64,000 nucleotides of DNA from the NCBI RefSeq assembly GCF_042453785.1, contig NC_091673.1, positions 10,821,501 to 10,885,500 on the forward strand, given 5' to 3'. The translations under genes and the position numbers were made by a program. Source of the DNA: Malus domestica (Eukaryota > Streptophyta > Magnoliopsida > Rosales > Rosaceae). The notes beneath the pieces are model-generated. The model saw only the letters and a list, made by a program, of their open reading frames with translations. It did not search any database and was not told where the DNA came from. Positions 11,105 to 63,860 of this stretch are shown here, piece after piece (positions within the stretch are counted from its first letter, which is position 1; each line of letters starts with the position of its first letter).

Positions 11105-11785
11105 TGGCATGTTACGTAATCATAATCGAAATGAAAAATGTAGAGAATTAGACTCGCGCGAATTTTGGAATCCAACTCCAAAATTTGAAGAAATTAGACT
11201 CCCGGCATTAGATAGTATTTCAATTGCAGGTCGTTGGGAAAATCCAAAATGGATCATATTGAAAAGGGCCAATAATTTAATTGATGTTATGTCAGTGTCA
11301 AAGGTTTGCTCTTTCATGGTCCTTGGGTGTTAATGAAGACTGTCGAATTTAATCTAAATGATCTGGAGGCTCACACCAGTTAGATCCGAAGTGGATCTCT
11401 GTCATTGATGAACTATTTCTATGCATGTATTCCAAAGAGCATGTTTTTTTGAATCTGGATCCTTTCCGAATCTTCTTTGTGACGATCCCATGGATCCGAG
11501 AATCGTATATATTCTTCGTACATCGTGCAGTTGGAAATCATTTTAAATTTTTTTATTTAAAATTGAACACAAACAGGAGGATGTACGATGAACGAATACA
11601 ATTCACGGGTTCCCAAGATCCTCACACAGAGGATTCAGAGAGGATCCTGTTCGTGCGTTTTTAGATGGTGGTTTTAATGCCTGTAGGGACCTCCGGTGGG
11701 AACTTGTAATAATAACTCATCATCATCATGGAAGTGTAAAAGGGTGAAAAGGACAAGATCCTTAAGCCATCTCCAACCGAGGGCT
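11105..11785 (+). repeat. Direct duplication, left copy
   Basis: This matches 16690-17385 in the same orientation with scattered changes; for example both carry GATGTTATGTCAGTGTCAAA and GGGACCTCCGGTGGGAAC. Similarity even reaches into the first bases of the Harbinger-like end (GCCATCTC). No gene is seen in it. The open frames here contain no family motif. Confidence 0.85.
11457..11648. mobile_element. Palindromic MITE of the GGATCCTCTCCG family (copy 1)
   Basis: The ends are inverted repeats near GGATCCTTTCCGAATC and GATTCAGAGAGGATCC, with an inner inverted pair around TTCGTACATCGTGC and GATGTACGATGAACGA. It lies inside the duplicated segment, and related copies are at 17034 and 63650. Confidence 0.7.
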
Positions 11786-16689: not shown

Positions 16690-17385
16690 TTGAAAACATC
16701 TAAAGATAGTTTAATTAAATAGTAGGGGACTCGCTTGAATTTTGGAATCCAACTCTAAAATTTTGAGGAGTTAGACTCCCGACATTAAATAGTATTTCGA
16801 TTGGGGGTCGTTGGGAGAATCCAGAATGGATCATACTGAAAAAGGCCAATAATTTAATTGATGTTATGTCAGTGTCAAAGGTTTGTTCTTTCATGGTCAT
16901 TGGTGTTAATGAAGACTGTCGAATTTAATCTAAATGATCTGGAGGCTTCTAACAGTTAGATTCGAAGTGGATCTCTGTAATTGATGAACTATTTCTATGC
17001 ATGTATTCCAAAGAGCATGTTTTTTTTGAATCCGAATCCTCTTTGAATTTTCTTTGTGACGATCCCGTGGATTTGAAAATTGTATCCGTTCATCGTACAT
17101 CATGCGGTAAAAAATCATTTTAAATTTTTTTATTTAAAATTGAACACAAACATTACTTGATAAACTAAACACACGATGTACGATAAACGAAGACAATTCA
17201 TGGGTTCCCAATATCCTCACATAGAGGATTCGGAGAGGATCCTGTTGGTGCGTTTTTAGATTGTGGTTTTAATGCCTATAGGGACCTCCGGTGGGAACAT
17301 GTACTAATAGCTCATCAGCATCTTGGAAGTGTAAAATGGTGAAAAGGGACAAGAACCTTAGGCCATCTCTAATGAAGAGGGTTGA
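16690..17385 (+). repeat. Direct duplication, right copy
   Basis: This is the counterpart of 11105-11785, 5.6 kb downstream in the same orientation. It ends at about 17385, where the sequence switches to retroelement-type DNA (TTGATGTGTATTTAAAC). Confidence 0.85.
17034..17246. mobile_element. Palindromic MITE of the GGATCCTCTCCG family (copy 2)
   Basis: This is the same element as at 11457, inherited in the duplication, with an extra insertion in the middle (TACTTGATAAACTAAACACA) that separates its inverted arms. Confidence 0.7.
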
Positions 17386-17648: not shown

Positions 17649-18977
17649 GGGCAAAAAACTGTTTACTACCCTTATATTTCGTGGTTTTCAACATTTAGTA
17701 CATCAAGTTTTTTTCGTCCCAGAGTCATACCTAAAGTGTAAATTTTGGGACAGTCTCATACATCCGTTAGTCAAACTGTTAAGTTTGCCGTTAACAGTGA
17801 CACGGCTCCCATGTGGACAATGACTGGGCGCCATGTGTCATCTACGTGGAAATTTAAAAAAAAAATATATATATATTATAAAATAATAAATAAATAAATT
17901 TAAAAAAAAAAAGTTTTTTTTTTTTTCCCTTCTTCTTCCTTCATTTTCCTTCTTCTTCCTCTGAATCTGGGTAGCAGATTCGTTTTTTTTTCTTTCTTCT
18001 TCCTCCTTCCTTCTCCTTCTTCTTCTTCTTTCTTCATTCTCCTTCTTCCGAATCTGCCCATTTTTTTTTCTTCTTCCTCCTTCTTCCTCCTTCCTTCTCC
18101 TTCTTCTTCTTCTTCCTTCTTCTTCCTCTTCGAATCTGCCCAGTTTTTTTTTCCTTCTTCCTCCTTCCTTCTCCTTCTTCTTCTTCTTTGAATTTGCCCA
18201 GTTTTTTTTTTCTTCTTCTTCCTCCTTCCTTCTCATTCTTCTTCTTCTTCCTTCTTCTTCCTCTTCGAATCTGCCCAGTTTTTTTTTTTTCTTCTTCCTC
18301 CTTCTTCCTCCTTCCTTCTCCTTCTTCTTCTTCTCATTCGAATTTGCCTAGTTTTTTTTTTCTTCTTCCTCCTTCCTTCTCCTTCTTCTTCTTCTTCCTT
18401 CTTCTTCCTCCTTCTTCTTCATCGAATCTGCCCAGTTTTTTTTTTCTTCTTCCTCCTTCTTCATTCTCCTTCTTCTTCTTCTTCTTCTTCGAATCTGCCC
18501 AATTTTTTTTTTCTTCTTCCTCCTTCCTTCTTCTTCCTCCTTCTTCCTTCTCATTCTTCTTCTTCTTCTTCAAATCTGCCCAGTTTTTTTCCTTTTTTTT
18601 TCTTCTTCTTCCTCCTTCTTCTTCCTTCTTCCTTCTCCTTCTTCTTCTTCTTCCTTCTTCTTCCTCATTCTTCCTTCTCCTTCTTCTTCTTCTTCCGAAT
18701 CTGCCCAGATTCGTTTTTTTTATTTAATTTTATAATATATATATATATATTATTTTATAATTGTTTTTTAAAATTTCCACGTGGATGACACGTGGCGCCC
18801 AGTCATTGGCCAAATGGGCGCCACGTCACAGTTAACAGCTGACTTAACAGTTTGACTAACGGATGTATGAGATTGTCCCAAAATTTACACTTTAGGTATG
18901 ACTCTGAGACGAAAAAAAATTGATGTACTAAATGTTGAAAACCATGAAACATGAGGGTAGTAAACAGTCTTTTGCCC
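17649..18977. mobile_element. Mutator-like element with long inverted repeats and a polypyrimidine core
   Basis: A perfect 9-base target duplication TTAAAATAA (17640-17648 and 18978-18986) flanks inverted arms of about 220 bases. The arms start GGGCAAAA(A)ACTGTTTACTA and carry TTTAGTACATCAA and GTCAAACTGTTAA on both sides. The interior is the array at 17925-18722. No transposase is present. Confidence 0.9.
17925..18722. repeat. Polypyrimidine minisatellite (TTC-rich)
   Basis: About ten copies of a 55-125-base unit occur. Each has a spacer GAATCTGCCCAG, a run of eight or more T, then TTC/CTT blocks. One strand is almost pure pyrimidine for ~800 bases. The outermost spacers form short palindromes (GAATCTGGGTAGCAGATTC and CGAATCTGCCCAGATTCG). 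Long open frames across it are low-complexity artefacts. Confidence 0.92.
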
Positions 18978-44175: not shown

Positions 44176-44971
44176 TTCTATCCTTAAAAGCTTTCAAGTT
44201 AGGAATAATACACCTGTAATTTTTCCTTATAAGCAGGAAAACATACTTGGTTCTAGAACAGAAAACTCGGTTGAATCCTTTGTAACTTGTATTGAATTAT
44301 CAGAAAATCAAGTTTGTTGATATGATGAGTCTCAACTTCGATGACCAAGATGGTAAGATACTTTATCTGTTTGCTTGAGTGTGTTGAAGTTGGAAATTAG
44401 TAGCTAATGTACATGTTTCTTTTCAGGGATACTGAGAACAATTTTCGATGCACCACCAACCCATTACACAGTAAAAGTACAATCGATTTCGTTGCTCACC
44501 AAACATAACTTGGAGAAATATGAATCTGGGGACTTTGTAGCCGGAGGATACAAATGGTACAATCCTTTCTCACTATTTCTGAGAACAAGTTTTTACTGTT
44601 CCTTTTTTCATAAGCTTTGCGTTAATTGCTAGTGTTTTGTTTTTTTTTTGGAGTTGCGTTAGAGTACTATAACAGGAAACTGGTTTTCTTTCCGAATGGA
44701 AACAAGAATAGGAATGTGAAAGAGCACATCTCTCTCTACTTGGTAATGTCTGGAGCAATTGCTCCCCAGATTTCTTCGGAAGTGTACGCTGTTGTCAGGT
44801 TGTTTATACTCAATCAAAACAACGGCAATTACTTCGTTCTTCAAGGTACCATTTCTTTCTTTTAACTCAACGAATAAAAAGGGCTTATAGTTCTCATATT
44901 TGTGAAGCATCGTCTCATTTTCCAATCTTTTTAAAATATGCATTGCTCAGAACCAAAGGAAAGGCGGTTTC

Positions 44972-45510
44972 TGTTGAGGAAAAATTGGAGGACACAACTT
45001 TAACACAAGTGTTGGAGAGGCAAAACAAGTAAACAAATTGCTTGTATTACACTTACAAAATATTACAACACTCAAAACTCTCAAAGACATTTTAGAAGCA
45101 ATGACACTCACTCACTTTCTAGAGAGAAGCTCTAGACCACTCACCTTCCTCACAAGACTACTCTTACTTCTCACTCTTACTTGGTTGCTTGATCACTTCT
45201 TCGTTACAAGCTTACTTACACCATTACATATTTATAAGCTTGCTAAACCGATTTACTAAGTCGGTGGAATGGACTCATTTCATCCTAACATTGTTCTAGG
45301 CTTTTCTACAAACAGCCCATCAACATGGGCTTTGCTTATAACCTCACATATGTTACAATAGCTAGATAATTATGGCTTGTTAATATGCATGCATCCCACC
45401 GACACACTTATGCTAGAAGTTTCTAGCATGCATATGCTTTTTCCTTTGGTTCTTCATCATAGGCTAGACTTTATTCTTTAGGCTCTTTGGGTTGGTGTTG
45501 TACTTCAACA
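44972..45510 (-). repeat. LTR of copia 3 (3' LTR of the element)
   Basis: 539 bases, from TGTTGAGGAAAAATTGG to GTACTTCAACA. Confidence 0.9.
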
Positions 45511-45943
45511 CTCCTCCTCAACACTAGCTCATTCTTTCCTCCATGTTGAGTTAATGCCAGAGCTTTTTCTTGCACACCCATTTGCGTGATATGGACATCT
45601 CTTCGCTTTGGCACGAGATTCCATGCTTGATTTAGCTCTTTTGTAATGACCTCTTTTCCCAACTTTGAGCCATTCAAGTTTAACTATTTCTTCCTCTATG
45701 GCTACGTTGGCAAATTTAGAATTTGGCTTTGGGATTCCTGTTGACCTCCTTAGTTATGACTGTGGAGTTGATATTTCCATTTCACTAGGTCTTTCTTTTT
45801 CTGGTTGTTGATATACGCTAGTTTGCCAAGGGGTTTGAGGTGCTGTTTGCTTAATATCATCACCATTAAGTGAATCCTCAAACTCATATAGTCTCGATTG
45901 GATTCAAACAGTTTGTTCCCCCATCTTCTGCTGCAGCTTATCC

Positions 45944-48270
45944 TCAATGTATCTCAAATCCGGCAATGCCTCTATTTCTAAAGACCACAAAAAAATGCTT
46001 CATCAAAGACCACATCTCGTGATGTGTACATCTTCCAGTTGTAGGATCATAACATTTCCACCTTTTTCTTTGGCTGTCGTATCCCATAAAGATACATCTG
46101 ATTGCCTTCTTGTCAAACTTGCTACGTAAATGACTTGGAACAAATACGTAGCACAGACAGCCAAATACTCGAAAGTAACTAACTGTAGGTTTCATATCCC
46201 ATAGTTTCTCAAAGGGTGGGACAAGTTTTAACCTTGTTTGAGGAAGCCTGTTGATCACATGAGCTACAGTTCTCATTGCTTCGGCCCAAAACCTTCCTGG
46301 TACGTTCTTGGCATGGAGCATACTTCGACATATCTCTGCAAGATGTCGATTCTTTCTTTCCGCTACACCATTTTGTTGTGGCGTGTTAGCACATGTGAAC
46401 TGGTGATGTATTCTACATTCTCTTAGATACTGAGAAAACTCATTGGAGGTATATTCTCCTCCATTATCCGTGCGTATGCAACAGATCTTCTTTCCCACTT
46501 CTCTTTCAACTGTCTCCTTAAACTCTTTAAATTTTGAAAATGTTTCATATTTTTCTTTCATAAAGAAAATCCATACATACTTGGAGAAGTCATCAATGAA
46601 CGTCCCCATGTACCCATCCCACTTATCGATGGTTGCTTGACAGGCCTAAACACATCGGAATGAACCAACTCCAACAGTTATTTCACTTTAAACTTCGACT
46701 CTTCGTATGGTAGTTGATGTGCTTTACCATACTGGCATCCTGCATAAATTGTGTATGTTCTCATGTTAAGATGAGGTAGCCCCTTAAGCATTGACTTCTT
46801 CATCATCACATTTAACTTGTGATAGCTAACGTGACCCAATCTCATGTGCCATAAATCTACTGTCTCATTTTTCCTTGTTTTGTCTACGTATGCAGTTTCT
46901 ACTGACATTACATAGACTGATTGCAGTCGTCGTCCCTCCATTGTTGGCGTCCCTAAGATCTTAAGGTGTCGATACACATTCATATCTTATGGACCAAACA
47001 AGACATAATTTCCTAATGACGTTAGTTGCGGCATTGAAAGTAAATTTTTCTTCATACCTGGAACATGGTAGACATCCTGAAGTGGTACATGGTTAGTGTT
47101 GTATCGGGGCTTAATTACTGTCTTACCGATGTGAGCAATCGGTAGCCTCAAGTCGTTAGTCGTCACCACTAAGCGGCCTCTTTTGTACTCAGTCAAACTT
47201 TGTAATTTTTTCTCATCACCTGTCATATGGTTTGAGCAACCTGAATCCATGATCTAATCATTCTGGTAGTCAATCAACTCCGGACTTGCTGCTGTGAGAG
47301 CTAGCTCTTGCTTTTCCATAGCAACAGATGCTTCAGTGTCCCATTATTCCCCCAGGGCTAGAAACGCAATGACGTCCCAATCATCTTCAATATTCTCCTT
47401 TGAGCTGGCAACATTACTCTTTGTGAACTTTTTGAACTAGCAATTTTTCACCATGTGACCCTTCTTACCACAGTTGTAACATTTTCCCTCAAACCTTTTA
47501 TTATTCTGGGATTGACCACGGTTGTCGTGATACTTCAGAGCTCTCCCTGGCCAAGAACTCCCTCCTCATTGATGACTTTTTTCTTGTCACCATTTCTTTT
47601 CGATCCACCACTAGCACGTTGCTTAAAGTTGCTTTTACTTTTGGTGTAGAGCACTTCCTTTTCACCTTTTAACAAGACCCCTCCCATTTGCTTTGCCAAA
47701 ACTTCTTGATTGGTAAGCGAATTTTCAAACTCAATAAGTGATGGTTGGGTCGGCCATCCTTGTACAGCAGCAACGAAGCCTTGATATTTGGGTCTCAACC
47801 CATGGATAATTATTCTTTTTATCTTGGATTTTACAATGGCAGCATTAGGATCTAATTCAGAAATTTTACGGCAAATAAACTTTACCTTGTGGAAATATTC
47901 GACAATCGTCATGTCTTGTTGGGCCACTGATAACAACTCGTTCTTGAGAAGCTGCAGTCTTGTATCGTTCCTATTTGAAAAGAGTGTGGCGAAGGTGTCC
48001 CATGCTTCTTTTGGTGTTTTGGCTTTCCGTATGTGCTCCAACATGTCATCTTCAATTGTGGTTTTTAAGGCGAACATTGCCTTACTTGCCTAGATCTTCC
48101 ATTTCCGCAAAGTGCCGCTGGTGTCTTCTTTCAGCTGTGTAACTTCATTACCGCCGACGATATCCCAAAGATCTTGGCCTTGTAGGTAAGATTCCATACA
48201 TGTCGCCCATTTGTTGTAATTTTTTGTTGTTCAACTTCTTGATTCCTTTAACAACTTGAAGATCTCCCAT
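45944..48270 (-). pseudogene. Gag-protease-integrase of copia 3
   Basis: Gag begins at 48270 (MGDLQVVKGIKKLN), shifts frame, then reads DDMLEHIRKAKTPKEAWDTF (UBN2-type gag). A complete CCHC knuckle CYNCGKKGHMVKNC lies at about 47490-47449. Protease [11 protein letters not shown] is at 47250, a GAG-pre-integrase [14 protein letters not shown] near 46850, and integrase 46609-45944 with DNGGEY and [15 protein letters not shown]. Stops separate the parts. Only scraps remain between 45944 and the LTR, where polymerase should be. Confidence 0.9.
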
Positions 48271-48394
48271 TGTGTCGGTAGAAATTCGATAAGCCGAACA
48301 AGATTAGTCAACAATCTTGTGAAGCACTAAACTTCTCACGATTCTCGGAAGCTTCCTTAGATATGGTCCCTAATCGTACCGCTCTGATACCAAT

Positions 48395-48910
48395 TGTTGA
48401 GGAAAAATTAGAGTACACAACTCTAACACAAGTGTTGGAGAGACAAAACAAGTAAACAAATTACTTGTATTACACTTACAAATATTACAACACTCAAAAC
48501 TCTCAAAGACACTTTAGAAGCAATGACACTCACTCACTTTCTAGAGACAAACTCTAGACCACTCACCCTCTTCACAAGACTACTCTTACTTGGGTGCTTG
48601 ATCATTTTTTCGTTACAAGCTCACTTACACCATTACATATTTATAGGCTTGCTAAATCGACTTACTAAGTTGGTGGAATGGACTCATTTCATCCTAGCAT
48701 TGTTCTAGGCTTTTCTACAAACAGCCCACCGACATGGGCTTTGCTTATGACCTCACATATGTTACAATAGCTTGACAGTTCTATCTTGTTAATATGCATG
48801 CATCCTATCGACACACTTATGCTAGAAGTTTCTAGCATGCATATGTTTTTTCCTTTGGTTCTTCATCATGGGCTAGACTTTATTCTTTGGGCTGGTGTTG
48901 TGCTTCAACA
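48395..48910 (-). repeat. LTR of copia 3 (5' LTR of the element)
   Basis: 516 bases, from TGTTGAGGAAAAATTAG to GTGCTTCAACA. It is shorter than its partner through small deletions near 48590 and 48890. Confidence 0.9.
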
Positions 48911-50439
48911 GTTTCATGGGATGAAACTCGATTGGGAATTCGATCAATTTCTCTCCCACAAAGCTTTCACTGAAGCTTCAAATGGATTTCTCCTAGATGA
49001 CACTTATGTGTTGGGAGCAGAGGTCTTTGTTTCTAAAGAGAGAAGCAAAGGCAAAGGAGAGCGTCTATCAATGGTAAAGGATCCTGTTATGTACAAGAAT
49101 ACTTGGAGGATTGACAACGTATCAAAGCTAGATGCGGAATCCTACGACTAAAAAACATTCATTGCTGGAGACCAGAAATGGTATATAACACTAGACTTGT
49201 TAGACTTCGCTCTTGGTATAAGAAATTTCTCTCGAGGATATCGAAAACTTAAGCGCAGTATATCTGAAAATGTTGTAAATGAGTTGGTTGTTGGTGTAGG
49301 AAGATGCAGCTCTATCCCAATGGAAAAGGCAATGGATTTGGAACCCATCTGTCTTTTTTTCTGGCGTTAGCCGAACCGAAATCACTTCCTCCTAGCTGTC
49401 AAATATATGCAGGGGTTACTTTACGGATCCTAGACCAGCAGTATGGCTCGTGGTATATCTCTGGTAAAGATAAAAATTTTGCCCAATCCTACTGCTACAT
49501 AATCATACGAGCAAACAAGGATTAGAACATCTAACAAACATTCAATTAAGGGTGGTTTTATTGCTTCCGTCATGCTAAAATTCCCACCATGAAAGACGAT
49601 GAGACTCTAGTTCTTGGAGGTGTTTGAGTCGTGATGGTGTACCATGTTGGTGATACTTACTATTGAACCTGTGTTCATTTGAAAACCAATATCGAGAATT
49701 TCTGATTGCAACCTACTGAAAATGTTCACAATTTTTTGGTTACAAGAAAATATGGTAATTACGACACTTTTTTTACGACGCGTGATGCAGCCGTCGCAAT
49801 AACTATCAAATTTCATTATTTTATGCGCGCTAAGCTTTGGCGCTCTGTTGTTTGCGACATGAATAAGTTCCGTCGCACACACCTCTGTTGTGAATAAGTA
49901 GAAGAAAACAAAACACAACTGCACGCTCTCATCTCCTTCTCGCTCTCTTCCTCTCTAGTTCTCGTTCTCCGCCTATCTCCCTCTCTTCAAAGCATAGATC
50001 CTTCTTTGCCACTCTTGCCACAACCACTGATGCTGAGACACAATTGAACCAGGTAAGGATTTATGTTTCTTGTTCCTCTCTTAAATCTCCCCTTTCCCTA
50101 ACCCTAATATTTTTTGTCATCTCTTAGTCTTTTCTTTTTGCCGCTAGAAATTCGAATTCAACCTCATCCCTTCTGATTCGGTAATATTATTTGAGGAATT
50201 ATCTTCTAATTTGTTTTTTCTTGGTGTTGTTTCGTCATTTTTTCCCGCAAATTCCAGTCTTATCTATTCTCCATTAGTTCTCCCATTGTTTAGGGTTTCT
50301 TTTTGTCATTTCTATGTTCAATTTCATCACTAATTGCTTATATTGTTGGAGGATTTTTTGTAATTGGAGCTAGTCAAAGAAGTATGCTGGCTTGGTTTTG
50401 TTTATTTATTCTTTATTGGCACTGGTGACTCGGTCAGCA

Positions 50440-50840
50440 AGAGAAGCAGAAATTTGGTGGTGGATTAATTGGAGAAGGATGAGGAAGAAAGCATTGATGA
50501 ATGCAGAGATAATGGCGGTGCTTTTGTGAAGAAGCACGGGGTGGTCAGAAAAAGGTGAGATTTGTAGGGGAAAAGGGAAGAACTGTTTGGAAAGGATTGG
50601 TGAATGATGAGTAGAAATCAGAGCAAGACGGAGGAGAAAATGGAAAGCGAGCCTCTAAGAAAAAGTGAGAATGGGGTGTAGTTTAAAGGTAGAAGATGAA
50701 GTGGGGCATTTTGATGACATCGATACAGAGAAAGGTTTGCGAAGAAGCAAGAAAGTGGGTTATTTTCTTGGGGTCATAAAGGATCATACGAAGCAGGAAG
50801 AAAGAAAAGTAAATAAGCAGTCCAAGAAAGTAAGTAATTT
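50440..50840 (+). other. Unidentified sequence inside the CACTA-like element
   Basis: The segment is rich in charged codons (DEEESIDECRDNGGAFVKKH; HFDDIDTEKGLRRSKKVGYF) in broken frames. It may be another captured piece. Before it, 49920-50060 is CT-rich and UTR-like. Confidence 0.25.
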
Positions 50841-50997
50841 GTAAATTCTATGTTTATGTCATTTGTTGTCAATGTTGTGATTTACTCGTTTATGTTAATA
50901 AGTTACAACTTAAGTTAGCATCTGAAAGATTACCTAACTGTTTGAACAATCTCTAATTGAAATGTAATGCTTTATTTTACAAGTGCTATTTTTTCAT

Positions 50998-51810
50998 GAA
51001 CCTATTATATGTAAAAACATCCCTGGAATAGTTCCTGGTAATGGCTCGAAGTCATTTCTAATCTTGAATGTAAGTAAAATGATGTGGGAAATGCTCAATA
51101 CGTGTCCAATTTACAGGTTGGAAGAAAGCCATATGTATTCCTAGGCATGCCTTTGGCGATCAGTATCGAGCCTGATACAGTTGTCAAAGGGCCATGAAAA
51201 CTTGAAATGGTTTTTAGTAAGTAAATCTCAACATTCTAGATCATATGATTGTGCTGGTGAAGTAATTTCCCCTTGAATATGGTTTTCTGCTTCGCATCTA
51301 TCTGTTTGTAATGCTAAGTCCCAGAAGGAGTCTCCCCTATTGCACTTGATGTCTACAATTTCAAGGGGCCTGGTGTGGCCCTTTCTGTGTATAAATGCTG
51401 ATGAGGTTTGTGTTACCACAGTGGGCATCGCATACCTTTTTGTTCATTTAGGCAAATGTGCAGATAAACTTTACTAACAAAACCTTGGTTTTTTTGTAGT
51501 CTATTCCAGAGTTTGCCGACTTGTCAATGTCGTTGGCTCTTTCCAAGAAGTGGCCACTACACTTAAGCACCAAAAACACTATTATGAAAAAATAGTGAAG
51601 TACGATGGCAGGTAAATTTACCTTTGTTGGAAGAATTATTCAACATTCAACTATCAATTCTATATCATTTAGTTCTATAAGGAAATTATTACAAATGTTG
51701 AGTTATTTGACTGCCCCAGGTTTAAGGACATATTTGAGGAGGTTTAGGACGAGACGTGGAAGTATAAGTTTGAAGACAATTCTACATGGTTTGTATTATC
51801 ATGAGGACCT
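50998..51810 (+). pseudogene. NADP-dependent isocitrate dehydrogenase, captured exons
   Basis: Successive pieces follow the order of the NADP-IDH protein. Positions 50998-51037 read EPIICKNIPGIVP; from about 51119 RHAFGDQYRA, then after a frame change DTVVKGP and LEMVF; from 51326 VYNFKGPGVALSVY; 51500-51612 [19 protein letters not shown] and KYDGR; from 51720 FKDIFEEV. Introns with GT/AG between them are kept, so this is a genomic copy, not a processed one. Stops (after GP, VYK, EEV) and frameshifts abolish coding. The enzyme makes NADPH and 2-oxoglutarate; only the middle third is present. Confidence 0.85.
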
Positions 51811-52639
51811 TGACGTTGGAATATAGAACCTATTAACGTTTTGATCATGTATATATGTTTCATTACTGTAAGTGAAATACATTCTTTGATATCTAAGTGT
51901 TTCTCATTTTGTGAATTATGAATTTTATCAGTTTGGATTTTATTTTAGTTTGAAATATGTAGTAACATTTCACATGAAACAATAATGTGATTGTGGCGTC
52001 CCATTTGACGCCCAATATTTTTTTTTATACCTGGTGCCAATTATTTGCGACGCGTTACTTGCTGTCGCAAACCCCGTAGCAAATAGTATTTGCGACGCGC
52101 TAAAAACGTCACATATAATCGACCAACAATTACGACGCCTATGTATTGCGACGCGTCATTGGCCGTCGCAAGCTCGTCGTAAAAGGCTTGTTGCGACGCT
52201 TTTTGCTGTTTTTGCGACACGTTTTGACCGTCGCAAAAGGCCTTTTTTTTGTAGTGGTTGGTCGTAGCGAAAGATTTTAGGGTTTAATTCGTTTTGTGAT
52301 TCGGGTAGCCCAATCAGTCGTCCTCACGGTCCATTTTCTGAAAACATTTGAGTGTTTCTTAAAAAATGTGCTGAACTTGAAGACTGTAGTGTTCGGGGCA
52401 TGCCCATTTGGTGCACTCTTGAAATGTTGAAACTCATGTTGAACTTCTAGTATTTAGCAGAAAGCAACTGAATGTTTTCAGCAACATGACAATAAACCGT
52501 ATATAGACAACAATTTAATTTGTTTAGTGTCATCCAGTTCTATCTTTTATTAAAAGTTTGTAACCAACTCTATTTGCATGTTTTACCCTTGTGGAAACAG
52601 ACTCTTCGCAACGTAACAGTAAAGCTGTTTACGATAAAT

Positions 52640-52759
52640 TGTACTGGTCGAATGGATGACAACACGCTCTTTACTTGTTTGAGGTAAAGTGTTCTTCAAA
52701 AAAACAAAAAGAGCTTTCCCGTGGGTCAAGTGAAGCCTACTGCTTAAGATATGGTAAGC
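52640..52759 (-). pseudogene. ATG8I: ATG8i-like exon fragment (left block)
   Basis: The minus strand reads ILSSRLHLTHGKALFVFLKN and TLPQT before AAGTAAAG, the counterpart of the exon at 63449-63575. Part of the neighbouring intron is present too. It joins MATH sequence on its left and a Cassandra-like scrap on its right. Confidence 0.8.
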
Positions 52760-52806
52760 CAAAAGCGGACAATATCTTGCTATGGCACATCCGATCTAGG
52801 ATGTGA
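52760..52806 (+). other. Scrap similar to the Cassandra LTR end
   Basis: AAAAGCGGACAATATCTTGC and AGGATGTGACA match the last part of the LTR at 60638-60930. It bridges the ATG8i-like piece and the gypsy fragment. Confidence 0.45.
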
Positions 52807-56466: not shown

Positions 56467-57326
56467 TAAAATGATGTTAACTGACTTATGAATATGAATG
56501 AAAGTTCTGCGTCCACGATATGGTTTGTACTAAATGTGGCGCTTCTATAGAACCCTAGAGCAGCAATCCTTTCCCACCAGATGACTTGTGGTTGAAAGGC
56601 ATTTTTATCTTTGGATTTATGTTGGGCTCAAGTTTGTGCATTTGTTTCAAAAATGATTGAAATGCATTTTTTGCTCAAAAATATGGTTGAACGCCAAATA
56701 TATCGAGTCTTGACCAGTAATGTCATACGACTAACATCTCTTGTCTATAGCCGAAACTTTGTTTTGCTTGTGTAATCTTAACTTCCTGCTAAACCGTAAA
56801 CATTGTTCAGTTTAATAAGAAATAAAATTGCAGAATATGTGTTTTGAAGCACCTAAAGCCAGGTGATGGATACATTTTCAATGAAAAAAGGCAACCTTTT
56901 GAAGCAAAGCATGACGGTTCTATCCTTTTTTTTTCTTCACAAACAATAGCGTTGCTAGGTTCAATTGTTAGTGTTCAGGGGGAGGGGATGGGTAGAGATC
57001 AAACCCGCACCAAGGTGCATAGGCATGATTGCTTTCCGCCACTGCAGTAAAGCATCATCTGCAACATTTATATCCTTTAAAGCTTTCTAGTTAGGAATAA
57101 CACCTATATTTTTCCTTACAAGCAGGTGATGGATACCTTTCAAATGAAACAATGGCAACCCTTTTGAAGCAAAGCATAACATTTCTATCCTAAAAAGCTT
57201 TCAAGTTAGGAATAATACCTTTAATTTTTCCTTATAAGCAGGAAAACATATTTGGTTCTAGAACAGAAAACCTGGTTGAATCCTTTGTAACTTGTATTGA
57301 ATTATTGGAAAATCAAGTTTGTTGAT

Positions 57327-59465
57327 ATGACGAGTCTCAACTTCGATGACCAAGATGGTAAGATACTTTACATGTTTGCTTGAGTGTGTTGAAGTTGGAA
57401 ATTGGTACCTAATGTACACGTTTCTTTTCAGGGATACTGAGAACTATTTCGGATGCACCACCAATCCATTACACAGTAAAACTACAATCGATTTCGTTGC
57501 TCACCAAACATAACTTGGAGAAATATGAATCTGGGGACTTTGAAGCCGGAGTATACAAATGGTACAATCCTTTCTCTCTATTTCTGAGCATAGGTTCTTA
57601 TTGTTCCTTTTCTCATAAGCTTTGCGTTAATTGCTAGTGTTTACTTCTTTTTTTGGAGCTGCGTTGGAGTACTATAAATTGTTGTTTTGCTGCAGGAAAC
57701 TGGTTTTCTATCCGAATGGAAACAAGAACAGGAATGTGAAAGAGCACATCTCTCTCTACTTGGTAATGTCTGGAGCAACTGCTCCCCATATTTCTTCGGA
57801 AGTGTATGCTGTTTTCAGGTTGTTTATTCTCGATCAGAACAACGGCAATTACTTCGTTCTTCAAGGTACCATTTCTTTCTTTTAACTCAACGAATAAAAA
57901 GGGCTTATAGTTCTCATATTTGTGAAGCGTCGTCTCATTTTCCAATCTTTTTAAAATATGCATTGCTCAGAACCAAAGGAAAGGCGGTTTCATGGGATGA
58001 AACTCGATTGGGGATTCGATCAATTTCTCTCCCACAAAGCTTTCACTCAAGCTTCAAATGGATTTCTCATAGATGACACTTGTGTTTTGGGAGCAGAGGT
58101 CTTTGTTTCTAAAGAGAGAAGCAAAGGCAAAGGAGAGTGTCTATCATTGGTAAGCAAAGGCAAAGGAGAGTGTCTATCATTGGTAAAGGATCCTATTATG
58201 TACAAGAATACTTGGAGGATTGACAACGTATCAAAGCTAGATGCGGAATCCTACGACTCAAAAACATTCATTGCAGGAGACCAAAAATGGTATATAACAC
58301 TAAACTTGTCAGACTTCGCTCTTGGTATAAGAAATTTCTCTTGAAGATATCGAAAACTTAAGCACAGTTTATCTGAAAGTGTTGTAAATGTGATAGTGGT
58401 TGTTGCAGGAAGATGCAGCTCTATCCCAAGGGAAAGGGCAATGGAGTTGGAACCCATCTTGCTTTTTTTCTGGCGTTAGTCGAACCAAAATCTCTTCCTC
58501 CTGGCTGTCAAATATATGCAGAGTTTATTTTACGGATCCTAGACCAGAAGTATGGCCAGTACCATATCTCTAGTAAAGGTAAAGATTTTGCCTAATCCTA
58601 CTGCTACATAATAATACGAGCAAAAAGGATTAGAACATCTAACAAACATTCAATTAAGGGTGGTTTTATTGCCGCCATCATGCTAAAATTCCCACCATGA
58701 ACTACGATGAGACTCTAGTTCTTGGAGGTCTTTGAGTTGTGATGGCATACCATGTTGGTGATACTTACTGTTGAACCTACGTTCAGTGGAAAGCCAATAT
58801 CGAGAATTTCTTATTGCAACCTACTGAAAATGTTCACAATTAGTCAGTAGTGAAAGATTTTAGGGTTTAATTCGTTTTGGGATTCAGGTAGCCCAATCAG
58901 TCATCCTCACAGTCCATTTTCTGAAAACATTCGAGTGTTTCTTCAAGAATGTACTGAACTTGAAGACTGCAGTGTCCGGGGCATTCCCATTTGGTGCACT
59001 CTTGAAATGTTGAAACTCATGTTGAACTTCTAGTATTTAGCATAAAGTAATTGAATGTTTTCAGCAACATGACAATAAACCGTATATAGACAACAATTTA
59101 ATATGTTTAGTGTCATCCAGTTCTATCTTTTATTAAAAGTTTGTAACCAACTCTATTTGCATGTTTTACCCTTGTGGAAATAGACTCTTTGCAACGTAAG
59201 AGTAAAGCTGTTTATGATAGATATTCCTTCCCGGAGAGTCCTGTTAGCTTGGAGTCACCCTTTTACCCTTTTTTCCAATATACTATTGAACTGAGAATCC
59301 TTTTTGTTGATTGCAGCAAATCACTGGTTCAGTGTCTCAAATTCGATGAAGGGATGGATGAGATTTACTACTCTGGGATCATTCAACCAGACACACATTG
59401 TGTTGAATGATACTTGCATTGTGGAGGCAGACGTCACTATCCATGGAATTATTGATGTACTGTAG
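57327..59465 (+). CDS. MATH-domain protein with two MATH (TRAF-like) domains, six exons, intact
   Basis: Plant proteins with tandem MATH domains (ubiquitin-specific protease 12-like and RTM3-like relatives) mediate protein-protein contacts; the role of this one is unknown. Exons: 57327-57357, 57432-57561, 57696-57865, 57971-58289, 58409-58578 and 59317-59465, 969 bases and 322 residues, all GT/AG with matching phases. It starts [15 protein letters not shown] 1 spans about residues 18-140 ([52 protein letters not shown]). MATH 2 starts near 175 ([20 protein letters not shown]) and ends with [20 protein letters not shown] and [18 protein letters not shown]. If exon 5 is not spliced at 58578 the frame stops early at 58593. 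A 33-base tandem duplication lies in exon 4. Confidence 0.85.
58120..58185 (+). repeat. 33-base in-frame tandem duplication in MATH exon 4
   Basis: Two identical units encode [11 protein letters not shown] twice. The left block has a single unit (SKGKGERLSMV), so the duplication arose in this copy. Each unit ends in TTGGTAAGC/TTGGTAAAG, which could look like a splice donor. Confidence 0.9.
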
Positions 59466-59642
59466 CCAAATAGTATAATAGTACAAAATTCCTGCTATGT
59501 GAAACTTTGGGGGTGTAAAATAGTAAAGCTAGTCGAATAAGGTGTTAAAAACACATTCATTTCACTTGTGAATACCATTGTATCGTTTGTGACTACATGG
59601 TGAATAAATACATCATTGTCTGCTCTTCGTATACCCTTCTTT
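59466..59642 (+). other. 3' flank of the MATH gene
   Basis: Probable 3' UTR; an AATAAA-like AATAAATAC lies near 59604. It ends at the CACTA element's TTT target copy. Confidence 0.4.
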
Positions 59643-60310
59643 GACTACTACAAAATGGAGTTATTGTGTCATAGGTGATGTCGCTTTAATATAATATAAT
59701 GGCGGACAAGACATTTACGACACCTACTGAACATGACGTCGGATTTACTGTCGCTTGTAAGCATCATAAACTGTCTATGTCGCTTTTAACCTACATAAAC
59801 ATTTAATGTCACTTATAATAACCGGCATACATTTTAATAATTTTTAAATAATGGTGTCGCTTTAAAAAAATAGTGTCGCTTTTAAGCGACATAAAGTATT
59901 GGTGTCGCTTTGAACCAATGCAATGTTTTCTTATTTCCACGCAACTTGCAATCACTATCATGTCTATTAGGCTTGCTTCGGTTTGAACCGAGGCATAATT
60001 TTCTTATTTCGACTCCATTTTCATCAAGTCTATCAGGCTCACGTCGGTTTTAACCGACACATTTTTTTCCTATTTCGACACCACTTGCCTTTTAGTAAGT
60101 GTGTCAGACTACTTGACTTAGTGTCGGTTTTAACCGACGTGAAGTCCAAATATTTCGATGCCAAGTGCGTTTCAATCAGTGTGTCAGAGAAAAGCAGCAA
60201 TAGAGCTCAATATATTGGGGTAACAATGTAGTCCTTATTTCTCATCTCTAAACCCTTTTTGAAAACCTGTATTTACGTAATTTTTTTACAAAATTTCTTC
60301 TTCTTGAAAT

Positions 60311-61152
60311 GGGCAGTGGCCGAAAGGGCAATATTCCCCAGAGGGTTCCTCTCCCCCCCTCCTGTGTATGGAGCATCATCTTTTAGCAGCTCAAAAACTT
60401 CCCGTGCTACCAGTTTCAGTTTGCCATCTTTCACGAACCCTTCCCATACCAGTTACGAGCCAAGTGTTCCTTCTTATTATGGAGATAGCAGTTCCGTCGG
60501 TACAGCTCCACCTACTCCCAACTCAACCTATGATAATCATGTATGCAAACTTCTCAGTTGCCACCTCTAAATACTGTTTTGATGGGTTTGTAGCGCTCTT
60601 GAGGGTTAACAGTTTATATGGTGATGAACAGGTTTGCTGTTAGACCCCACATCGCTTAAGGGAGTGGATCTTCTATGCCTTATATGTACATACCCACCTC
60701 TTATAGCACGAGGCATTTTGGAGACTCACTAGCTTCGGGTTCCATAGGAACTTTAAAGTTAAACGAGAAAAAGGCCACAGCATTCCCAGGATGGGTGACC
60801 CCTCGGGAAGTTCTCGTGTGAGTTCCTAGAAACAAAACTATGATGGCATGGTTGGGGTCCAAAGCGGACAATATCGTGCTACGGCGGAGTAGAGCCTAGG
60901 ATGTGATGGGGGCTAGGTTGGGATGTGACATTTGCCCCATTTGCCTTACGAATCCGAAAGACATGGCCTTTGGTTGCGGGCATCAAGTACATTTTTGAAC
61001 TATAGTTTCAAGATGAGTTGAGACGATCATATTTTTAGTACCGTGTTCTTAGTGTTATGTTTTCGGTGCAGACATGCTGCAAATGCAGACAAGATCTTCA
61101 GTCGTGCCCAATATGCCGAAGTGCAATCCAAACCCGGATAAAACTGTATTAA
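60311..61152 (+). pseudogene. RGLG: RGLG-type RING ubiquitin ligase, last exons captured by CACTA
   Basis: RGLG proteins (copine/vWA plus RING) are E3 ubiquitin ligases acting in stress signalling. Exon a, from about 60311 to 60540, reads RKGNIPQRVPLPP, shifts frame at a run of seven C (60353-60359), then VYGASSFSSSK, GTAPPTPNSTYDNH. Exon b starts at 60632 with Val-Cys, is split by the Cassandra LTR, and continues from 60931 CPICLTNPKDMAFGCGHQ to 60986. Exon c, 61072-61152, reads TCCKCRQDLQSCPICRSAIQ and ends TRIKLY. All RING Cys/His positions are kept. The vWA domain is absent. Confidence 0.9.
60638..60930 (+). mobile_element. Cassandra-type TRIM solo LTR with 5S rRNA-like sequence
   Basis: 293 bases from TGTTAGACCCCACATCGC to GGGATGTGACA, with a perfect TTTGC target duplication (60633-60637 and 60931-60935). 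The inner part (AAAGTTAAACGAG, CCAGGATGGGTGACCCCTCG, GGAAGTTCTCGTGTGA) matches the 3' half of plant 5S rRNA, the mark of Cassandra elements. Confidence 0.88.
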
Positions 61153-61639
61153 CGACTATGTGCTTTCATGCCGGAGTTGGCTGACATTTTGTGTATTTGT
61201 TTATTTTTTCAATCACATTCTTTGTAATCCATTGCTTCAGGTGGTCAGGAGGTTACTAGGTTTGGTAAATGGTTGGTCAAATCCAGCGTATGGTGATGAT
61301 GATCCTTTTTTTTTTTTTGGTTGTTTAAGAAGAAAATGAAAAAGAAGTGAAGAGCTAGCCTCAAAGAAGTGAAGTTTTGGTGATTTTATGGACAACATCA
61401 TAATTATTTTATTTATGGAGATGTTAGTTAATGTCGGTTACGACCGACAATAGATCTACTATTTTATTTATTTAACTTACGTGATGTCGGTTTGGACTGA
61501 CAGTAAGTGTGATATTTTTATTGTGTATTTGTTACTTAAGGTCGGTTTTGACTGCTATCATATCAGATTTTCATGTCGCTTATAAGCGACGTAAGAGCCG
61601 ATGTCGCTTTTAAGCGACGCTGTTGTTCATTTTTATTTG

Positions 61640-62640
61640 GGATACTTTGGATGCGGTCCCTAATCCTTAACATTATTTGATTAAAATCTTAATGGTATTC
61701 AAAGTTTGATCAAAGTCCATTGACTTTGTACACCTCATTATATTACTATTAATATTTATATTTTTATAGTTTTGACATTAATTGTTTGATATTTTATGAG
61801 ATTCAAAATCATATAAATTTAAAATCCCTCATTATAATACTATTAGAAACGGTTACAATAAAAAGAGTTCAAACATTTTGATTGAATAAATGGATAAAAA
61901 CTATGTAAAAATAAGAAATAATAAATGGCAAAAGAATGTATCCATAGTGTTAAAAAAATTGGTACATTTTACAAAAAAATTGGTACATTTCACATATGAC
62001 AAAGTGGTACATTAATAAAGAAGAATGGGTACATTATAAATAAATTAGGGTATATATAAAAGATTAAAAAATTATGAGTACAAATGAATTTTCAAAAAAT
62101 ATAGGCCCTAAAAGAATTTAAAACATGGGTACAAAATAAAACTAAAAAGAAAATACTACAAATTTTAAAAAAATGTTGCAAATTAAAAGTGAGTACAAAC
62201 TAAAAATATAAATATATGATACAAAGTTTAGGCATAAAACATAAATATACCATATGTAATTTTTCTTTTATCATTGATTAAATATACAATGTCACGTGAC
62301 GGTATACACATGGGTACAAACACAAATAAAACTTAAAAAAAAGATGGGCACAAAAAGAAACTAATATATGGGTACAAATAAAAAATGAAAAGAAAATTGG
62401 TACAAATTAAAACATATTTGCAAATTAAAAATAGGTACAAACTAAAAATAAAAATATATGATTAAGAATTTAGCCATAAATATAAATATACTAATTGTAA
62501 CATTTTTAACACTAAAGGAATATATTTAAAAATAAAAATATTTTATTATTCAAATAATTAATGATGTTATTAATACCTAAGGACCTTGATAAAAAAATTA
62601 AAAATGTTTAATCAATGGAGTAACAAAAAGAAGGATGTGA
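61640..62640. repeat. AT-rich stretch with recurring GGTACAAA/GGTACATT motifs
   Basis: More than ten GGGTACAAA, TTGGTACAA or GGTACATT words recur at 20-60-base spacing between about 61960 and 62445 within the CACTA element. GGTCCCTAATCCTTAA at the left and TACCTAAGGACCTTGA at the right hint at a separate nested element, not proven. Confidence 0.5.
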
Positions 62641-62857
62641 AGCTAATATCTCATTTTTATTTTATATTACTTTGCTTCTTGGTGGCGGATTAAGGGGGCT
62701 AAGCGACATCATTACCCTTTTGGTGATGGTAGTATTGGTGTCGGTTCCTCTATTCGACATTGCATGATTTAATGTCAGATTTTTACCAAAAATCCGACAG
62801 TAATTGGTGTTTCTTGTTGGTTTTACACCGCCAGTGATATCCTCTTTTGTAGTAGTG

Positions 62858-63262
62858 TTTGTTTTCGGTTTCATTTTTCCTTCCATGGTGCTCGAGAGCA
62901 TAGAATACTCCAGACTTTTTAACCTTTAGATTTTAATTTCTTTATTTTTAAACAAAGATCTGAACGGTTAAAGCACACGCAGTATCCCATACTCTGGGAC
63001 ATCGCAGAAAATCCTTTCTTTTTTCGTTGAACTTCGATTTGGTTGTTTACAGAGGAAAAGATTGGAAATATATTGGGACATGAAAGATAAATGAGACAAT
63101 ACTGAATTGGAAAATGTTGCATTTAATAAAAGTTGTGAACTTTACAGAATTCACAATGAATCAAATATACAAAGAACATGATAATACAGAGTGAAGCGGG
63201 CCTCACATGCCTGTTCTGATAGGGACGAGGCGATTAGATAATTAGGGGAGGAGATGGCAAGA
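62858..63262. other. Spacer between the CACTA element and the ATG8i-like piece
   Basis: On the ATG8i strand this is the probable 3' flank. No gene or element end is seen. Confidence 0.35.
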
Positions 63263-63575
63263 TTAGCCAAAGGTTTTCTCGCTGCTGTAACACATCCAGG
63301 AAACGGTCATCCTCCTTGTAAGTTTCATAGATGGAATCCAAGCGACTGGCCGTAAAGAAATACACATAATAAAGTGTTAAAGTGACTCCGAAAACATGAT
63401 TCATGCGCGAAATTGTACTGGTCGAATGGATGACAACACGCTCTTTACCTGTTTGAGGTAAAGTGTTCTTCACATAAACAAAAAGAGCGTTCCTTGGGGT
63501 CAAGTGAAGCCTACTGCTTAAGATATGGATAAACTGTCCGACAGACATATCCCTAGGAACTAGGAATTTAGAAGA
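63263..63575 (-). pseudogene. ATG8I: ATG8i-like autophagy protein, last two exons, frameshifted
   Basis: ATG8 is the ubiquitin-like protein joined to phosphatidylethanolamine on autophagosomes. The exon from about 63571 to 63449 reads FLVPRDMSVGQFIHILSSRL, then HLTPRNALFVYVKNTLPQT, and ends ACAG before GTAAAG. The last exon starts after CGGCCAG near 63347 with SRLDSIYETYKEDDRFLDV. A short deletion then shifts the frame; in the shifted frame SSEKTFG and TAA (63265-63263) follow, giving the short Gly-ending tail of the ATG8i type. Earlier exons are not seen in 63576-64000. The frameshift and lost 5' part point to a pseudogene fragment. Confidence 0.85.
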
Positions 63576-63649
63576 AACAAGGAAACACGGGATAGAGGTT
63601 ATTCTCCTTAAAGTGAGAATGCATAAACAAGCAGCTAAAATTGACTGAG

Positions 63650-63849
63650 GATCCTCTCCGGATCCTCTTTGTGAGAATTTCGGGGACCCTCAAATCATAT
63701 TTGTTCATCGTACATCGTGTGGTCAGTTTTCGTTAGATACTGTTTATATTTAATTTTAAATAAAAGTATTAAAATAATTTCTAACAGTACGATATACGAT
63801 GAACAGACACGATTTGAGGATCCCCACAAAGAGGATCCGGAGAGGATCG
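63650..63849. mobile_element. Palindromic MITE of the GGATCCTCTCCG family (copy 3)
   Basis: Nearly the whole 200 bases fold into a hairpin: GATCCTCTCCGGATCCTCTT at the left pairs with AAGAGGATCCGGAGAGGATC at the right, and TTGTTCATCGTACATCGTGT pairs with the GATATACGATGAACAGACAC side. Confidence 0.85.
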
Positions 63850-63860
63850 TCGTTCACTAA

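Follow-up and report, generated by a model that had tools for sequence, protein, structure and literature searches.

This locus raises the question of whether a transposable element of apple that carries the RING-coding tail of a ubiquitin-ligase gene still holds a usable gene or merely a passenger. The window, by which we mean the whole stretch of 64 kb of DNA that was analysed, contains a CACTA-like element at positions 59643-62857 with such a fragment between its ends. The best explanation, to which we assign a probability of about 0.85, is a decayed Pack-CACTA passenger, in which the tail of a RING-ligase gene was captured, the RING exon was split by a nested solo LTR, and no protein function is left.

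The ends of the element and the repeats next to them are the following:

59640-59642, no strand: left target site duplication, TTT
59643-59655, plus strand: left terminal inverted repeat, GACTACTACAAAA; base 1 differs from CACTA
59680-60139, no strand: left subterminal repeats (GTCGSTT motifs; palindromes at 59875, 60043 and 60123)
61433-61619, no strand: right subterminal repeats with two palindromes (61575, 61603); more motifs at 62701 and 62740
61630-62690, no strand: AT-rich stretch between the right subterminal motifs, limits approximate
62845-62857, minus strand: right terminal inverted repeat, CACTACTACAAAA in the minus-strand reading
62858-62860, no strand: right target site duplication, TTT

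When the ends were compared, the terminal inverted repeats were identical at 12 of 13 bases. On each strand of the 64 kb there is a single occurrence of the 12-mer ACTACTACAAAA, and these two are the ends of the element. The terminal base of the left repeat is G and not C, which counts against a CACTA-type reading. The duplication TTT/TTT has a length of 3 bp as in CACTA elements and is a weak test, because TTT is common in the A+T-rich window. The motif GTCG[CG]TT/AA[CG]CGAC showed 27 matches in the window, 20 of them inside the element, and ten of these 20 pair into five 16-bp palindromes. Sequences simulated from the element (500 Markov-1 runs) contained 0.37 motif matches on average and 4 at most, compared to the 20 observed; since the motif was picked only once the repeats had been seen, this simulation measures clustering and not discovery. 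Subterminal direct and inverted repeats of the CACTA kind are present in the element, and the accessible text of PMC8978399 lists such repeats together with a 3-bp target duplication among the features of CACTA elements. The AT-rich stretch contains an internal repeat (62080-62264 and 62322-62507, about 185 bp, matching at 78%, 242 bp apart) and is possibly another insertion. A match to a CACTA transposase was absent from the six frames of the element (Pfam, with X at stops), as is expected of a non-autonomous copy.

A MATH-like exon on the same strand as the captured fragment ends with its stop codon at 59465, and the element starts 177 bp downstream of it (PF22486, E 0.00097; 19.8 bits against a cut-off of 32). 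A further MATH-like piece is located at 57955-58341 (63.6 bits). On the other side of the element, an ATG8-like ORF was detected on the minus strand at a distance of about 0.4 kb (63234-63689; PF02991, E 9.9e-16). The end of this ORF reads FLDVLQQRENLW..., and in comparison to ATG8, a frame change presumably precedes the C-terminal glycine. Besides, a small element, perhaps a MITE, whose inverted arms of 37 nt are 86% complementary, was found at 63642-63856 with relatives at 11449-11648 and 17036-17243, and a long low-complexity purine/pyrimidine stretch with E/K/R-rich and S/F/L-rich frames occupies 17838-18788.

A local duplicate of these surroundings (44176-52754) resembles 57183-63528 in four collinear pieces, which are 89 to 94% identical. 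It was considered as an empty site and rejected. In the duplicate, the equivalent of 59222 is followed directly by that of 63410, and nothing in it matches 59223-63409; the missing stretch of about 4.2 kb exceeds the element and leaves no clean empty site. Because this gap is wider than the element, the duplicate neither shows nor denies the insertion.

Inside the element, three coding pieces are located on the plus strand, which terminate in ...CPICRSAIQTRIKLY and between which introns are retained. The second of them, the RING exon, is present in two parts:

60309-60540, plus strand: upstream exon piece, RGLG-like by presumed parentage; 5' limit approximate, donor CAT^GTATGC
60632-60637, plus strand: codons 1 and 2 (V-C) of the original RING exon; old acceptor AACAG^GTTTGC
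60936-60986, plus strand: remaining RING exon, PICLTNPKDMAFGCGHQ; donor CAA^GTACAT
61072-61152, plus strand: last exon, TCCKCRQDLQSCPICRSAIQTRIKLY and stop; acceptor GTGCAG^ACA

Joined in silico, the last two pieces encode 45 amino acids that match the RING family PF13920 (E 2.8e-09; 37.1 bits, cut-off 27), while each half of the RING alone, taken from the window, gave weaker matches below the curated cut-offs. The third RING of MIB1 (8v0d, E 1.3e-10) was the best of 15 solved sequences matched. When all six frames of the element were scanned against Pfam with X at stops, 0 families were found up to E 0.1; this is a blunt test, because the RING halves were missed too. All eight codons for the RING ligands are present as DNA, but not within one readable exon; their survival could reflect youth or constraint. 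In the upstream exon piece, one frame gives MGSGRKGNIPQRVPLPP and another continues with PPPVYGASSF...TYDNH. The change falls at a C7 run (60353-60359), and a misassembled homopolymer could account for it. That both frames belong together is our assumption from the RGLG sequence.

A fragment of a host gene thus sits between the terminal inverted repeats, as in Pack-CACTA elements. The initial annotation had proposed a CACTA element at 59643-62857 that captured the tail of a RING-ligase gene ending in TRIKLY. The exact ends are borne out by the terminal repeats (12/13), the target duplication and the subterminal motifs; the capture is supported by the PF13920 match and the position of the pieces inside these ends, and the RING-coding pieces do terminate in TRIKLY and a stop.

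If the RING pieces were instead the remnant of a local gene, CACTA-like ends would flank them by chance. Such an origin would be in line with the absence from the 64-kb window of a second copy showing that the unit moves as one (blastn returned only the element's own internal repeats and a 46-nt LTR match). However, the pieces are bracketed by terminal repeats, target duplication and subterminal repeats, and no other tblastn match of the three pieces within the window was better than E 0.25; we regard a local remnant as highly improbable. Searches in bacterial/archaeal and viral contigs gave 53 and 5 pattern matches, respectively, with 0 confirmed by tblastn, and 0 matches of the LTR core described below in the viral contigs; these collections are without plant genomes, so that misses there say little.

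The captured fragment was most likely derived from an RGLG RING ubiquitin ligase, a plausible parentage that was already named in the initial annotation and that we take from RGLG C-termini. RGLG ubiquitin ligases possess a copine/VWA domain before a C-terminal C3HC4 RING. The copine/VWA domain was found neither in the six frames of the element (X at stops, again a blunt test) nor in the 10 of the 74 listed ORFs that were scanned, and the fragment is therefore not an RGLG gene but at most a piece of one. With the RGLG ligases it would have the C-terminal RING coding pieces in common, which are split by the LTR here. In contrast to them, only the tail is present, and the N-terminal part, which bears a myristoylation motif according to the accessible part of PMC9224344, is absent.

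The interruption of the RING exon consists of a block with these features:

60638-60930, plus strand: nested solo-LTR-like block of 293 bp, TG...CA, with TTTGC on both sides
60745-60829, plus strand: 5S rRNA-like core of the block (RF00001, 14.6 bits, E 2.5; gathering score 38)

LTR retroelements in general have TG...CA ends and a 5-bp duplication. The block fits a short LTR in its length of 293 bp, its TG...CA ends (start TGTTAGAC, end ATGTGACA) and the 5-bp duplication TTTGC at 60633-60637 and 60931-60935. It sits two codons past the old acceptor (exon start 60632). If the flanks are joined without it, GTTTGCCCCATTTGC results, which reads V-C-P-I-C and is an uninterrupted exon start; the block was hence inserted in an exon and not in an intron.

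Most likely, the block is a Cassandra-type solo LTR. This name is tentative and leans on Cassandra LTR sequence, because the 5S match is weak: it was seen only at a lax Rfam threshold, as the sole match between 60600 and 60960 at E 10 or below, and at gathering scores Rfam gave no match anywhere in the window. The second LTR, PBS and PPT of Cassandra are absent, and since TTTGC closes directly on one LTR, the block is not a Cassandra element but at most a solo LTR. It resembles Cassandra TRIMs in being a short LTR with a putative 5S-like core near the middle (accessible parts of PMC10853983 and PMC7215508), and differs from them in the single LTR and in the weakness of the 5S match (E 2.5). 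In the portion of PMC10853983 available, the 5S similarity lies mid-LTR in Cassandra, and the 5S-like region of apple Cassandra comprises >100 nt. Recombination led to solo LTRs for BARE and to long tandem arrays for Cassandra, as the available portion of PMC7215508 states; this contrast speaks against the label of a Cassandra solo LTR, not against the insertion. Elsewhere in the window (52762-52806), blastn showed a stretch of 46 nt that matches the 3' part of the solo LTR at 80% and directly precedes an ORF that resembles a gypsy reverse transcriptase, as judged by eye.

A 5S rRNA-like core with a pol III promoter is the hallmark of Cassandra LTRs. The 5S-like core of the block might act as such a promoter and drive a short sense RNA, so that the solo LTR would form a pol III exon trap in the captured fragment. 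From 60745, the first run of at least four T occurs at 60992, six bases past the last base of the RING exon, and such a transcript would accordingly comprise the 3' part of the LTR and the RING exon sequence (about 250 nt). The weak 5S match (E 2.5) speaks against this scenario, which we hold to be extremely unlikely.

For the readability of the RING exon, the borders of the block are crucial. Read-through from the old acceptor into the block gives V-C-C-stop. The surviving RING half is preceded by ...GATGTGACATTTGC, and AG is absent at that border. Among the 27 AGs in 60546-60940, a single one, with its exon start at 60900, gives an open frame that agrees with the phase of the old exon. These three observations make a spliced RING product from the fragment unlikely, and because its RING exon is broken by a second mobile element, the locus most likely represents a dead gene fragment of the ordinary kind. 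Further claims of the initial annotation have to be revised in this light. The complete RING with every Cys and His holds for the codons (8/8) and fails for a readable exon, which is split by the 293-bp block. Three usable exons do not exist, as exon 2 is cut from its acceptor by the block and runs into VCC-stop, and exon 1 changes frame. The truncated RING product envisaged there is weakened by the split exon, the in-frame stop, the border without AG and the upstream frame change; the cryptic acceptor at 60900 would leave a narrow route.

By this route, the fragment might still be expressed. Transcription would start from a promoter within the element or come as read-through from the MATH-like exon, which would be sense because both have the same orientation, and splicing at 60900 would remove most of the LTR and lead to a small RING peptide. 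The exon start at 60900 is open and in phase into the RING half, exon 2 has a donor GT and exon 3 an acceptor AG, and the 17 bases preceding 60900 contain 6 pyrimidines, near the 7/17 of the old acceptor. In soybean, captured exons of a CACTA element were spliced into many chimeric transcripts, and CACTA cargo in an active gene can enter such transcripts by splicing (PMC1947982, accessible text). However, the old acceptor persists upstream and leads to VCC-stop, the upstream exon changes frame, and the acceptor of the last exon is richer in pyrimidines (10/17). Expression of a RING peptide by this route would thus be quite unlikely.

A further alternative, also raised by the initial annotation, is an action of the fragment on the parental genes via small or antisense RNA. 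Transcripts running on from the nearby minus-strand ATG8-like ORF into the element would be antisense to the captured pieces. No inverted copy of the exons was found in the window, and in 60290-61260 there is one 17-nt overlapping palindrome; due to the lack of an inverted cargo copy in the window, no hairpin RNA is expected from the locus. Such a regulatory role would likewise be quite unlikely.

The ends of the element, the nested block, its flanking duplication and the in-frame stop are read directly from the sequence; the RGLG parentage, the Cassandra name, the loss of function and the following order of events are our interpretation. A non-autonomous Pack-CACTA element would have taken up the end of a gene for a RING ubiquitin ligase, introns included. 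After the capture, a Cassandra-type TRIM would have landed in the RING exon, and a solo LTR would be what is left of it. A frame change would also have arisen in the upstream exon, and the present fragment is most likely a passenger without protein function. The retained introns support a captured gene fragment, as introns are also kept in the fragments captured by PACK-MULEs (accessible text of PMC4717578).

Pack-CACTA or Pack-TYPE elements, as described in the available part of PMC8903248, share with the apple element the non-autonomous content, the CACTA terminal repeats, the 3-bp target duplication and the host exons with introns, whereas the cargo is split here by a nested retroelement. 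Tgm-Express1 of soybean is likewise a CACTA element with captured gene fragments and retained introns; in contrast to the apple element, it lies in the intron of an active gene, carries five gene fragments, and its chimeric transcripts were demonstrated (accessible text of PMC1947982). The apple element holds one fragment and lies downstream of a gene piece. Literature searches for Pack-CACTA with RING finger, apple or transduplication, and for RGLG with CACTA, transposon or gene fragment, retrieved no such element among the matches listed. PMC9266383, the one listed paper with both RGLG and CACTA, mentions them in unrelated places of the text available. The matches to the peptide strings that were listed (10 of 242) were all unrelated.

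By itself, the element leaves the knowledge of RGLG ligases and CACTA elements as before. It is a tidy example of the decay of a captured gene, in which the metal-binding residues all survive though a nested element split the exon, and it serves as a warning that a RING which is complete by residue count is not the same as a readable domain.
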